The position numbers and the translations under genes were made by a program. Below the pieces are notes generated by a model. That model was not told where the DNA came from and searched no databases. It was given only the letters and a program-made list of their open reading frames with translations. A stretch of 38,537 nt of DNA. Source: Acidilobaceae archaeon. GTDB taxonomy: Archaea > Thermoproteota > Thermoprotei_A > Sulfolobales > Acidilobaceae. The DNA lies in NCBI GenBank assembly GCA_028276165.1, contig JAPYWV010000006.1, positions 1 through 38,537 of the forward strand. Reading direction: 5' to 3'. Below are positions 2,747 to 6,422 of this stretch, one piece after another. Position 1 is the first letter of the stretch. Every line of letters starts with the position of its first letter.

Positions 2747-4294
2747 TTGAGTGTATGGGATAGGGTAGCTCGTGGCAGCATAGCACTCTCCATAGGATCC
2801 ATAGTATCGTTAGCGATAGCATCAATAGGTAGTATCATTATAGCAAGAACATTAGGCCCTGAGAACTATGGTTTAATATCAGTGATAATGATAGCACCTA
2901 ACATGCTCATGGTGCTAAGCGATCTAGGCGTATCAACTGCTATCACAAGATACGCTCCCATGAGAGGCTATGGTAACCCATACATAGTGGCGGGTGTCGC
3001 CATCAAGGCTATAACAGGGCTTTTAGCCTCCTTAGCCTTGATGCTAACAGCGGGCTATGTAGCAGAGGCCCTTGGGAGGCCGTACATCGAGCCCTACATT
3101 AGGCTTGCAGCGGTACTTGTAGTGACAAACTCCATAGTATCAGCTGTAACATCAGCCCTCATAGGCTTAGGGGGTTACTTTACCAGCGCTATCATACAAG
3201 CTTCGCTAACAGCCTTAAGGGTTGTGGTTGGAGCAGGCCTCGTTATAGCTGGTTTCGGTGTCCTAGGAGCGGTTCTAGGCCATGTCGTGGCTTGGAGTGT
3301 CTTAGCACTTGTATCCCTAGCGTTACTCCTACACCGTGTAGGTCTCAGCGGTAGGCCGTCGGCTAGGGTTGTGAGAGAGATTCTAGCCTACTCCACACCC
3401 CTCTACATCCCAAGCCTCCTAGGCCTGCCCTTAGGGCAACTCTACTACTCCATCCTAGCCAGGGTTGCGACAAACTGGGATCTAGGGAACCTAGGTGTAG
3501 CAGGTAACCTTATGACGGTTATTGGTAGTATCGGTGGAGCTATATCAACGAGCCTCCTATCAAGCTTCCCATTACTACTAGGTGATAGGGATGGTCTATC
3601 AAGGGCTGTTGAGAAATCGATAGCGTACACAGCCCTCATAATGCCGGCCATGGCTGGGGGTGTTATAGTGTTAGCTGAACCACTCCTACTAACCCTCTAC
3701 GGCCACTCATACGGTAAAGCACCCCTATACGCATCGCTAACAGCTCTAGGCGTAATGCTAGCACCCCTAGGCTCCTACGTGTGGAGTGCATACATGGCTA
3801 GCATAGGTAGAACCGATGTACTCTTAAAAGCTGGAATCCTAGGAGCTCTCACAGGGATCCCGATATACGTCACCCTAACCCTAACAACGGGGGTCGTAGG
3901 GTACATAGTAGCGGGCATCCTAAACTCGCTCATCGTAACAACATACCTACTCACAGTAGCCTTAAACCAGGGTGTCCGCGTAGACCTAAAATCAACCTTT
4001 AGGATGATAACACCAACAGTAATAGCCTTAACAACAGCAACACCAGCACTACTAATACCAGAGGACCCCCTGGTCAGATGGATACTAGCACCCCTAACCT
4101 ACACACTAACACTAGCAATAGTAACCCCCGTGATAACAGGGTCGGAGATGCTATCAGAGATGGCTGTAACACTGAGAAGAGCGGGCTTCATAGGGTCACT
4201 CATAGCACTAGCAATAAACATAGACGTTAAAGTGGCAAGAAAGATATGGGGGTTGAGGGAGTGTGACCCCCTTCCCGCATCCCCAGAGGCCTAG
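2747..4294 (+). CDS. Polysaccharide flippase (MATE/Wzx-like, MOP superfamily)
   Basis: A 515-residue, highly hydrophobic protein with about 14 predicted membrane helices, typical of Wzx/AglR-type flippases that move lipid-linked glycans across the membrane. The N-terminal pattern SIGSIVSLAIASIGSIIIAR followed by TLGPENYGLISV is characteristic of this superfamily. It starts at TTG 2747, 15 nt after the RpiB-like gene. The last ten residues (CDPLPASPEA) and the stop codon are encoded inside the left inverted repeat of the element at 4263-6043. The native tail was therefore probably replaced or extended when that element arrived. Codons near the 3' end are rich in A and C compared with the 5' half. 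Confidence 0.85.
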   Translation: MSVWDRVARGSIALSIGSIVSLAIASIGSIIIARTLGPENYGLISVIMIAPNMLMVLSDLGVSTAITRYAPMRGYGNPYIVAGVAIKAITGLLASLALMLTAGYVAEALGRPYIEPYIRLAAVLVVTNSIVSAVTSALIGLGGYFTSAIIQASLTALRVVVGAGLVIAGFGVLGAVLGHVVAWSVLALVSLALLLHRVGLSGRPSARVVREILAYSTPLYIPSLLGLPLGQLYYSILARVATNWDLGNLGVAGNLMTVIGSIGGAISTSLLSSFPLLLGDRDGLSRAVEKSIAYTALIMPAMAGGVIVLAEPLLLTLYGHSYGKAPLYASLTALGVMLAPLGSYVWSAYMASIGRTDVLLKAGILGALTGIPIYVTLTLTTGVVGYIVAGILNSLIVTTYLLTVALNQGVRVDLKSTFRMITPTVIALTTATPALLIPEDPLVRWILAPLTYTLTLAIVTPVITGSEMLSEMAVTLRRAGFIGSLIALAINIDVKVARKIWGLRECDPLPASPEA

Positions 4295-4457
4295 CCTTGT
4301 ACTAGGCCTCCCCGAGCGGTTTGTCGGATCTCCGCTCGGACGCGCACTCCTCATCCCTCCTATCGGATTCCCCATGCTTGGGGCATCACCTTTCAGGGCC
4401 GGGGGGCCTCGGCTCCAGCGGGTTCACCGGGGCTCCCTCCCCACACCGGCTCTTCTC
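4263..4457 (-). ncRNA. Structured RNA candidate, copy A (downstream of tnpB, same strand)
   Basis: Read on the minus strand this copy matches copy B (5851-6043) over its whole length, with a fully conserved core of about 80 nt. Conserved hairpins are CCGAGCGG/CCGCTCGG with a 12-nt loop, GAGGCCTAG/CTAGGCCTC with a 7-nt loop, and CCCC/GGGG. The 5' helix (4449-4440 with 4422-4415) is kept although its inner loop differs from copy B. The 3' GGGGGTC can pair with an internal GGCCCCC, giving a long-range or pseudoknot contact. It lies about 105 nt after the tnpB stop in sense orientation, the position of an omega-RNA in TnpB loci. The position matching copy B's TATA box is degenerate here, so it may be made from tnpB read-through or from the CTTTAAAG near 4505-4513. 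Confidence 0.55.
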
Positions 4458-4562
4458 CACCTTAATCCTATACGTCTAGGCTTCCAATCTCTTTCCATCC
4501 CCACCTTTAAAGACGAGACTGTCAGTTGTGGGCTTCCATTAACACATTTACTATGCGTACTT

Positions 4563-5624
4563 TTACTTTCTGAGTAAACGTAGTGCCCAGAGTATCGGTA
4601 TCCTATCTCTATTTTCTTCTAAACCACATTTAGAACATTTCATAAGCCTTCCCGGAAGCTCCTCCATTTCAACCTCGCAGTTTGGACATACCCTGCTAGG
4701 CAGTCTCCTGAACTCATATGGTACACCGTGCCATCTAAGCTGTGTCTCCAGTATTTTTATGAACCTCCTCACACCTGTCATTTGTATTTTTGCTTCACTC
4801 CTCGTTAAACCCTCTTCAAGCAGGTCTCTCCAGGACTCCTCTAGTGCCCTGTCTATTACCACCTTGGATTTATGCTTCAGAGCTTTCCTAGCAATCTTGC
4901 TGGCAAGCCATTGCGGGTAGTCCCTTAGGTACCTGTAGAGCTTACTCTTAGCATGTTGAGCCTCAACATCAAGCTTATCACTGTTAACGCCAATCCTAAC
5001 CAGTCTACCGTGGAGCTCCTCTAACCTCACAGACTTCCTGTAGAGGTTGTCTATGAACCTTAGGTCGGGCCTCTCCCGACCCTCAGATACTATCCTCCCA
5101 CCCTTAATCAAAGCCCATACCACTCCGTGCTTCCAGCTATTAACGTCAACTGGTAGCAAACTCTCAGGCTTGTAGGGCTCAACACTCCTCTCAGCAACAA
5201 GCATTACAGCTGGTATACCGTCCTTCAGGCCTAGCATTGCGAATACGATATCACCACCCTCCTCAATCCTATCGTAAACCCATCTTGGTATTGGTGCTTC
5301 AGCACGGCATATGCTCCTGAGCCTCATAACACCCCTGTCTAGGTTTAACACCAGGGGGGCTCCACCATCACCCCTCCTAGCCCCATCTTGTATTCTCAGC
5401 ACTGTCATTGGTAGCCATTGTCTAGCAAACCACCTCTTAGGCTTAGTCCCGAACTCTAGGTTGAAGTTCTTCTTGTAAAGCATTGTGCATGCTGTCCTCG
5501 GTAGGTCTTCGGGGCATATCTTTAGCTCTTTGTACCTGTATGCTAGGTTTGTTAGAGCCTGTAGTCTCAGGATGTCGCAGTCAACGCTAGGCAGTTCTAC
5601 TACCAGGGCTCTCCTCGCAATCAT
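4563..5624 (-). CDS. TnpB-like RuvC nuclease with C-terminal zinc ribbon
   Basis: A 353-residue OrfB/TnpB-type protein, the ancestor class of Cas12. The RuvC-I motif is LLPVDVNSWKHG (Asp160). The RuvC-II region is KVVIDRALEE (Asp258, with Glu262/Glu263 close by), where canonical TnpB has Glu in an IEDL-type motif. The zinc ribbon is CPNC...CSKC (Cys313, 316, 330, 333) and RuvC-III is ENRDRIPILWAL (Asp340), where canonical forms have DxNAAxN. It is a little shorter than the usual ~400 residues. The ATG at 5624 has a strong Shine-Dalgarno GGTGATC inside the upstream AbrB-like gene, which it overlaps by 38 nt, so translation is probably coupled. Nuclease activity is plausible but unproven. Confidence 0.8.
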   Translation of the reverse strand: MIARRALVVELPSVDCDILRLQALTNLAYRYKELKICPEDLPRTACTMLYKKNFNLEFGTKPKRWFARQWLPMTVLRIQDGARRGDGGAPLVLNLDRGVMRLRSICRAEAPIPRWVYDRIEEGGDIVFAMLGLKDGIPAVMLVAERSVEPYKPESLLPVDVNSWKHGVVWALIKGGRIVSEGRERPDLRFIDNLYRKSVRLEELHGRLVRIGVNSDKLDVEAQHAKSKLYRYLRDYPQWLASKIARKALKHKSKVVIDRALEESWRDLLEEGLTRSEAKIQMTGVRRFIKILETQLRWHGVPYEFRRLPSRVCPNCEVEMEELPGRLMKCSKCGLEENRDRIPILWALRLLRK

Positions 5625-5760
5625 CTGAGATCACCAACACCAGAACCCTACGACCTCTAAATGGGGCAATCCTATCCTGGTACTCTACTGGAACATATAT
5701 ACCAAGACCCCTCTTAGTAACCTTCGATACAGAGCCGAAAACCCAAACAACACAACCCAA
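5587..5760 (-). CDS. AbrB/SpoVT-like small DNA-binding protein
   Basis: A 57-residue ORF on the same strand as and just upstream of tnpB. Its centre, SKVTKRGLGIYVPVEYQDR followed by a basic GRRVLVLVIS strand, resembles the AbrB/MazE swapped-hairpin fold (K-V-T-x-R-G ... I-x-V-P ... strand). TTG 5760 is the only possible start, because a TAA is in frame a few codons upstream. A weak AGGTG site precedes it. TATA-like runs on the minus strand lie near 5772-5781 (CTTTTAAAGG) and 5796-5803. The likely role is autoregulation of the element or an antitoxin-like control of tnpB. The fold assignment is by eye from a short sequence. Confidence 0.55.
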   Translation of the reverse strand: MGCVVWVFGSVSKVTKRGLGIYVPVEYQDRIAPFRGRRVLVLVISDDCEESPGSRTA

Positions 5761-5817
5761 ACCAAAACACCTTTAAAAGAACTATACGGGCAAACCTTAT
5801 AAACTTTACGAGCGAAA

Positions 5818-5828
5818 AAGATTTAAGG
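5818..5828 (+). promoter_or_regulatory. Promoter of structured RNA copy B
   Basis: An A-rich BRE-like run followed by AAGATTTAAGG sits about 25 nt before the point where similarity with copy A becomes strong. This predicts a transcript beginning near 5850. It is back-to-back with the AbrB/tnpB promoter region. Confidence 0.45.
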
Positions 5829-5850
5829 CTCGGTCTATACGATTACATTT

Positions 5851-6043
5851 GAGCCGCCCGGTGTGGGAAGGAGGTCCGATGGTCCCACCGGGGCCGAGGC
5901 CCCCCGGCCCTGAAAGGTGATGCCCCAAGCATGGGGAATCCGATAGGAGGGATGAGGAGTGCGCGTCCGAGCGGAAAACCGACAAACCGCTCGGGGAGGC
6001 CTAGTACAAGGCTAGGCCTCTGGGGATGCGGGGAGGGGGTCAC
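5851..6043 (+). ncRNA. Structured RNA candidate, copy B (own promoter, divergent from tnpB)
   Basis: GC-rich, non-coding, with strong local stems: 5857-5861 + 5864-5868 with 5883-5892 (10 bp, UG bulge); 5923-5926 with 5933-5936; 5967-5974 with 5987-5994 (8 bp); 5996-6004 with 6012-6020 (9 bp). The 3' GGGGGTC (6035-6041) can pair with GGCCCCC (5898-5904), tying the 3' end to the 5' domain. The bases just outside 6043 are unrelated to those outside copy A. I could not match it to RNase P RNA, SRP RNA or 5S rRNA conserved cores. It may be a guide scaffold, a transposon-end RNA, or a stable RNA unrelated to tnpB. Confidence 0.6.
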
Positions 6044-6059
6044 CTGGGTAGCTTTAAGC

Positions 6060-6422
6060 CTAAACGTTACCAGCCATCTCTTTAACCCGGAATTTAAGCC
6101 TTCTAGGTTTAATGGAGAACTCCTGCCTACTCTCTACAAGCTCCATAGCTACTTGTATAAGCTTCTTAAGCCTATCGTCTACCAGCCTATAGTAGACATT
6201 CTTACCAACCTTCCTAAACCCTATGAAGCCTAGCCTCTTAACAGCACTCATATGGTATGATACGAGGTTCTCAGGCCTCCCAATAGCCTCAGCAATCTCC
6301 TTAACGGAAGCCTCCCCCCTCTTAGCCAAGTACATGAATATAAGTAGCCTGGTAGGCTCAGATAGCATTTTAAAGAGTTCGCTAGCATAGCCTAAGGTGT
6401 AAGCCAGTCTCTCAGCATCCAA
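6060..6422 (-). CDS. ArsR-family winged-helix transcriptional regulator
   Basis: A 120-residue DNA-binding protein. The core LSEPTRLLIFMYLAKRGEASVKEIAEAIG leads into ENLVSYHMSAVKRLG (recognition helix) and a wing FRKVGKNVYYRLV, the standard ArsR/HTH_5 layout. No CxC metal-binding motif is visible in the recognition helix, so a classical metal sensor is unlikely. A minus-strand TATA (GCTTTAAAAA, 6440-6449) lies about 26 nt before the ATG, implying a leaderless mRNA. It is divergent from the PGI/PMI gene and may control it through the palindrome at 6482-6502. Its stop lies 17 bp from the right end of the TnpB element. Confidence 0.88.
   Translation of the reverse strand: MDAERLAYTLGYASELFKMLSEPTRLLIFMYLAKRGEASVKEIAEAIGRPENLVSYHMSAVKRLGFIGFRKVGKNVYYRLVDDRLKKLIQVAMELVESRQEFSIKPRRLKFRVKEMAGNV

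Follow-up and report, generated by a model that had tools for sequence, protein, structure and literature searches.

A divergent omega-RNA with its own predicted promoter beside an overlapping abrB-like and tnpB-like gene pair: a recurrent variant of a mobile TnpB system in archaea

Introduction

In known TnpB systems the omega-RNA, the guide RNA of TnpB, is described as cut from, or overlapping, the tnpB transcript. The locus studied here, at positions 4263–6043 of a stretch of an Acidilobaceae genome (GenBank assembly GCA_028276165.1, contig JAPYWV010000006.1), raises the question of why a tnpB-like gene and a small abrB-like gene lie between two inverted copies of one repeat, and which part of this arrangement is the functional unit. 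We refer to the whole analyzed stretch of 38,537 nucleotides (nt) as the window. A sequence-only reading of the window had described inverted copies with identical ends around the abrB-like gene and an overlapping tnpB-like gene, and this description is correct: the two arms (4263–4441 and 5865–6043) are 179 nt each, 93% complementary and spaced 1423 nt apart, which is far above chance, and both terminate in GGGGGTCAC, facing outward, at 4263 on the minus strand and at 6043 on the plus strand. The two open reading frames (ORFs) between the arms share an overlap of 38 nt, and the plus-strand arm is oriented away from the abrB-like gene. The locus has the following features.

5587–5760, minus strand: small abrB/MazE-like gene of 57 amino acids (aa) with a TTG start, leading a two-gene operon; its ORF has equivalents in the paralogous loci on contigs C22 and C78, and directly upstream of tnpB in other families.
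4563–5624, minus strand: tnpB-like gene of 353 aa with RuvC acidic residues D160, D258 and D340, assigned from a Pfam TNB domain, AlphaFold, Foldseek and an alignment of 21 homologues.
5846–6043, plus strand: divergent omega-RNA gene (scaffold) with its 3' end GGGGGTCAC at 6043, assigned from covariance models R1 and R2, covariation and its equal position in relatives.
6044–6063, plus strand: presumed guide for the divergent RNA, CTGGGTAGCTTTAAGCCTAA, which follows the conserved end immediately and differs at almost every copy; the assignment follows TnpB biology.
5761–5845, no strand assigned: shared divergent promoter region with a TATA-like box for abrB-tnpB near 5799–5808 on the minus strand, a separate and plausible archaeal TATA element for the RNA (GATTTAAGG) at about 5820–5828 on the plus strand, and TTTAC at 5805–5809; relatives have equivalent regions.
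4263–4461, minus strand: second omega-RNA unit, of solo type, behind tnpB; it contains the inverted arm and a covariance-model match at 4263–4401.
4494–4529, minus strand: decayed left-end hairpin of the solo unit, an 86% match to the left-end consensus TTACAACTGAAAGCCTCGCCTTTCAAGGCGGGGATGG.
4243–4262, minus strand: presumed guide of the solo unit, ACTCCCTCAACCCCCATATC, assigned from its place in the 3' flank.

The divergent layout recurs in paralogues and in other families

The half of the locus that is conserved elsewhere is the upstream one, in which the omega-RNA and the abrB-like and tnpB genes are read in opposite directions from a shared promoter region. Contigs C22 and C78 of the same genome carry the same divergent RNA and small gene, making three such loci with the window; both stop just after the small gene and two other contigs, C93 and C134, open inside tnpB, suggesting that the former continue there. 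A class-wide and then phylum-wide search found the TnpB clade in other families, and 10 further genomes from several families hold 14 loci at which the small gene lies directly before tnpB with a structured RNA, whose core is CTGA..TGATGCC or a close variant, placed divergently upstream (L101, L102, L114, L131, L151, L137, L134, L153, L135, L154, L133, L152, L136, and L132). In this count the small gene was recognized by eye rather than by profile at L132 and L133 and gave weak scores at L136, L135, L154, and L153, tnpB is broken at L137 and L131, and two loci cut by contig ends (L103 and L150) are not included. On the TnpB tree the gene-pair loci cluster, with 2 changes compared to 12.1 in shuffles, and form two subclades; here L048, L049, and L103 are labeled as gene-pair members, though their upstream ends are cut by contig ends.

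The divergent RNA copy with its own promoter and the small gene, which the sequence-only reading had pointed out, is a conserved and non-classical arrangement, present both in paralogues of the same genome and in other families. Its recurrence in several distant archaeal families marks the layout as a genuine variant of a mobile system already known, and not as an accident of one locus. A scan of genome contigs for the window TnpB gave a match in the sister species only, a Desulfurococcaceae metagenome-assembled genome, and searches of viral, phage, and plasmid sequences gave none. In the openly accessible literature, relative to which we judge novelty, we found no paper that links AbrB to TnpB or describes an omega-RNA in divergent orientation. 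The sister species also holds a locus in decay: on its contig C90 (L060, 1399–1560) an abrB-like gene without tnpB and a decayed 5' part of the RNA adjoin a solo unit, near a tRNA-like sequence and an elongation-factor gene.

The arms are omega-RNA units

A consensus fold over 19 copies of the repeat pairs 98.1% of cells, compared to 92.4% in shuffles, and contains two-sided changes in 40 cells, compared to 12.5 in shuffles; slid controls collapse. The 5' side of the repeat occurs as two hairpin subtypes with unlike sequences, and in the stem near alignment columns 157–184 both sequence and length are swapped between subtypes while the pairing is kept. With this covariation backing the predicted fold, the repeat is a structured RNA.

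The ends of the repeat units match those of TnpB elements. Their right ends agree with those of the classical TnpB elements that the genome also carries (GGGCGGGGAGGGGTCAT), two of which (L067 and L074) finish in GGGCGGGGAGGGGTCA-type sequence, and the right-end hairpin of the classical elements is also present in some solo units, that is, copies that stand apart from the gene pair. The left-end hairpins agree as well (TTACAAGTGAAAGCC): L074 starts with TTACAAGTGAAAGCCTCGCC, and solo units have the same left end, TTACAACTGAAAGCCTCGCC. In the sister species, one unit starts exactly at the stop codon of a tnpB whose encoded C-terminus is 85% identical to that of the window protein. Moreover, R2, the covariance model made from the divergent RNAs of several families, matched an RNA that was not among its training sequences and that directly follows a distant tnpB, 3' of it and on its strand (L149, E 3e-4); it also matched units of the sister species (L058/L098). 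As in an omega-RNA, the fixed 3' end GGGGGTCAC coincides with the transposon right end and is followed by a variable, presumed guide; one such guide, CTGGGTAGCTTTAAGC, matched only its own site among the loci retrieved for comparison. Based on the covariation-backed fold and on homologous RNAs that relatives carry at the 3' side of tnpB, where classical elements have theirs, we conclude from sequence comparison that the arms are omega-RNA units. The earlier suggestion of a structured RNA that resembles an omega-RNA and is linked to a protein of the TnpB family is borne out.

Dispersed solo units and two precise insertions

Using the window unit as query, we found 22 matching places in its own genome and 13 in one sister species, with no match in 58 other relatives, and a covariance model gave 38 matches across the two genomes. 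The roughly 35 further places at which the repeat occurs in these genomes are mostly solo. The copies have a sharp common 3' end, after which the flanks are dissimilar at nearly all of them; the right flank is common to one pair only, L009 and L013 (contigs C143 and C113), where it is nearly identical, reflecting either a duplicated segment or strain variants inside the assembly. The left-end hairpin stands intact ahead of the solo units at C47, C106, C143, and C113 and is missing from many others. The sequence-only reading had named, as evidence that would count against it, a repeat found widely without tnpB and always as a single stable RNA: the repeat is indeed widespread without tnpB, but as solo mobile units with varying 3' flanks rather than as one stable RNA. 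In the sister species (C109), L055 holds at 1144–1300 on the minus strand a solo RNA of the L101/L131 subtype (nhmmer E 1e-16). A unit of the window subtype lies about 700 nt away, so that the genus harbors two omega-RNA families side by side.

The element ends of the relatives are IS200/IS605-like, and both the left-end and the right-end hairpin are seen there. At L101, L102, L131, L134, L150, and L151 the left-end hairpin lies at the 3' end of tnpB and reads in the RNA direction, antisense to tnpB, which means that tnpB is inverted relative to the transposon ends when compared to the IS605 layout. Two insertions at places other than the window locus are precise. The L101 element lies within an archaeal ATPase gene, where joining CTCAC to CTCTACG restores the frame and Pfam ATPase_2 spans the junction, and the solo unit L019, in the genome of the window, interrupts a membrane-protein frame that yields 187 aa when joined after TTTAC; the sister species encodes a homologue of the second part. 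In both cases the insertion is 3' of a motif resembling a transposon-adjacent motif (TCAC at L101, TTTAC at L019), without target duplication. We did not use a further candidate, L011, for which the joined flanks give a 350-aa frame but the halves resemble unrelated proteins. These precise insertions disfavor the earlier idea that the system is domesticated, although the window copy itself may still be so.

The protein has a predicted TnpB fold

The 353-aa protein matches the Pfam TNB domain (E 2e-7). An AlphaFold model from 21 homologues, which replaced a poor model from three sequences (predicted local distance difference test, pLDDT, of 53), has a pLDDT of 88.3 and a predicted template modeling score (pTM) of 0.79, and its Foldseek matches include AsCas12f (E 6e-12), ISFba1 TnpB (E 4.9e-10), and ISDra2 TnpB (E 5.5e-7). 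We are confident that the modeled fold is that of TnpB/Cas12 (WED, REC, RuvC, and TNB zinc ribbon), and D160, D258, and D340 are conserved among the 21 aligned homologues. The PADLOC model PDLC01039, named Csx1 ('found elsewhere'), matches the TnpB of the window at 4563–5624 (E 7e-9) and that of L132 (E 1.4e-11); this model may have been built from mislabeled TnpB-like proteins.

Weighing the explanations

We consider it likely that the locus represents an IS200/IS605-like TnpB element of a divergent archaeal clade, with tnpB inverted, an omega-RNA under its own promoter, a small gene for a putative AbrB-like regulator, and solo derivatives that are mobile. This explanation is built on the architecture and its recurrence, the RNA structure, the protein fold, and two precise insertions at other loci. 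Read along the transposon axis, its parts would be, in order, the left end, tnpB and the abrB-like gene in antisense, the shared divergent promoter, the omega-RNA, the right end, and the guide. The tnpB mRNA would not be the source of the omega-RNA, which would be transcribed from a promoter of its own, and the AbrB/MazE-like protein would most likely bind the shared promoter and set the dose of RNA and TnpB. TnpB with its omega-RNA would then recognize the empty insertion site beside its transposon-adjacent motif, which is TTAC in this genus and either TCAC or TAAC in relatives, and, like classical TnpB, would thereby help the element to be retained or re-inserted. Solo promoter–omega-RNA units would arise when abrB-tnpB is lost by internal deletion; they would spread and could supply guides in trans, and the second copy behind the window tnpB would be one of them.

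Several points, including those on the active site and the small protein below, weigh against this account. Expression of the RNA, binding of TnpB to it, regulation by the small protein, and target cleavage are all predicted from sequence features. C22 and C78 stop before tnpB, and the tnpB genes attributed to them are those of C93 and C134. The two subclades mean that the arrangement may have arisen once or twice, or may have been lost. No left-end hairpin was found beside tnpB at the abrB-tnpB loci of the window's genome, so these copies may no longer move whole, and the Y1 transposase (PF01797) had no match in 6 genomes of the genus. It is encoded elsewhere in the genome in 6 of the 11 other-family genomes that carry the TnpB clade. 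The ORF list holds no recombinase gene within 4263–6043, and the rest of the genome was not searched for a serine recombinase.

RuvC motif II reads I-D, compared to E-D in classical TnpB, with Asp in place of Glu in every member of the clade. One aligner puts D258 before the Glu column and another after it, or the reverse, leaving its register uncertain by one residue. D258 may have taken over the catalytic role, or cleavage, and with it nuclease activity, may have been lost. The abrB-tnpB loci could then be RNA-guided DNA-binding repressors, similar to TldR or Cas12m, in which the D-D-D RuvC site does not cut and the solo omega-RNA guides silence chosen genes. In favor of this are the Asp-for-Glu replacement throughout the clade, the fact that Cas12m2 with an H-D-D site binds without cutting (PMC10442227), and the many guide-RNA units with their own promoter that serve few tnpB genes. 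However, all three motifs stay acidic across families, unlike simple decay, and the precise gene-interrupting insertions and the flanks that differ almost everywhere fit transposition better than chosen regulatory targets. We regard repression as unlikely.

Weak profile matches to Pfam MazE_antitoxin (PF04014) occur in 3 of 13 homologues of the small protein (best E 0.031), and to TIGR01439 in 1 of 13 (E 0.09). Of the earlier AbrB-like label, the conservation of the small gene before tnpB stands, and the label itself depends on these weak profile scores. Palindromes of differing sequence span the shared TATA box at L101, L102, L137, L151, L135, and L153 (for example GAGCAAAAAGCTTATAAACTTTTTGCTC) and fit candidate operators for the small protein; a palindrome test reached significance in some of the relatives but not in the promoter region of the window. 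Given the weak MazE/AbrB matches and the lack of a significant palindrome in the window, we infer regulation by the small protein rather than observe it. A different role, as an antitoxin-like inhibitor of TnpB, would make abrB-tnpB a toxin–antitoxin-style addiction pair. A small MazE-like gene that precedes and overlaps an effector gene is a typical layout of such pairs, and MazE_antitoxin is the best Pfam trace. Since the TATA-box palindromes in six relatives' loci fit an operator for a dimeric DNA-binding protein, we think this role improbable as the sole explanation, but the two roles are not exclusive.

The enclosed arrangement in the window, which the sequence-only reading had taken as the unit, is not supported as such. 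The decayed left-end hairpin lies between tnpB and the downstream RNA and is oriented with that RNA, as in solo copies, and the tnpB paralogues of C93 and C134 (70% and 66% identity) have no RNA behind them; the same is true of the relatives. The downstream arm is thus probably a solo unit that inserted next to the two genes; we regard the inverted arms as incidental and the divergent layout as the finding. These observations leave little room for a single composite transposon with the long omega-RNA copies as terminal inverted repeats, even though both ends are GGGGGTCAC and face outward. Short or partial inverted right-end fragments also lie just upstream of the promoters of three solo units (L015, 2990–3027; L053, about 2007–2024; L056, 2231–2345), which would suit a composite, but at L015 the fragment and the end of the unit itself are of unlike sequence subtypes, suggesting nested insertion, and we judge the composite very improbable. 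The solo unit also supplies the last codons and the stop of a flippase-like (Polysacc_synt) ORF at 2747–4294, so that its insertion probably changed the C-terminus of that ORF.

It is scarcely credible that the repeat lies near tnpB by coincidence, as a simple repeat or a structured RNA of unrelated kind: most copies lie away from any tnpB and neither the window nor ten relatives gave an Rfam match, yet linkage to the same gene pair recurs in several families and RNA homologues occur 3' of tnpB in the classical position.

Discussion

With IS200/IS605 TnpB elements that lack tnpA (IS1341 type, with the omega-RNA, also called reRNA, at the right end), the loci described here have in common the predicted TnpB fold, the left- and right-end hairpins as far as relatives and solo units are concerned, insertion 3' of TTAC/TCAC without target duplication in the two cases above, and a presumed guide from the sequence beside the right end. 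They differ in that tnpB is antisense to the omega-RNA and to the ends, the RNA is divergently promoted, and an abrB-like gene overlaps tnpB. In classical elements the omega-RNA overlaps the 3' end of tnpB on the same strand, whereas the conserved RNA here is upstream and divergent. Non-autonomous IS605 derivatives of the PATE/MITE type, reportedly found for example in Halanaerobium, resemble the solo units in having a left-end hairpin and a right end but no protein gene; the units here carry a full promoter and omega-RNA, and many lack the left-end hairpin. TldR, which are TnpB-like nuclease-dead repressors, and Cas12m likewise have an altered RuvC site in a TnpB-like protein, but here the three positions are all acidic (D-D-D) and the loci look mobile. 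Stand-alone, trans-acting omega-RNAs are known from IscB-type systems, where many guide-RNA loci also go with few nuclease genes; here, in contrast, the system is an archaeal TnpB one, and the promoter-bearing units are related to the divergent arrangement.

It is possible, although we propose this only tentatively, that these loci form a distinct class of TnpB system, with a regulated divergent omega-RNA, an AbrB-like dose controller, a D-D-D RuvC site, and dozens of dispersed, mobile guide-RNA genes acting in trans. If so, a handful of proteins would work with an extensive guide repertoire that is encoded in the genome and still growing. The layout places guide RNA and nuclease under separate, back-to-back promoters with a small putative regulator, as in some CRISPR and toxin–antitoxin loci, and the clade supplies archaeal TnpB proteins that are compact and whose active site is unusual. 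Here guide-RNA units are seen spreading without their protein gene, and the step between the TnpB of transposons and stand-alone RNA-guided systems becomes directly testable.

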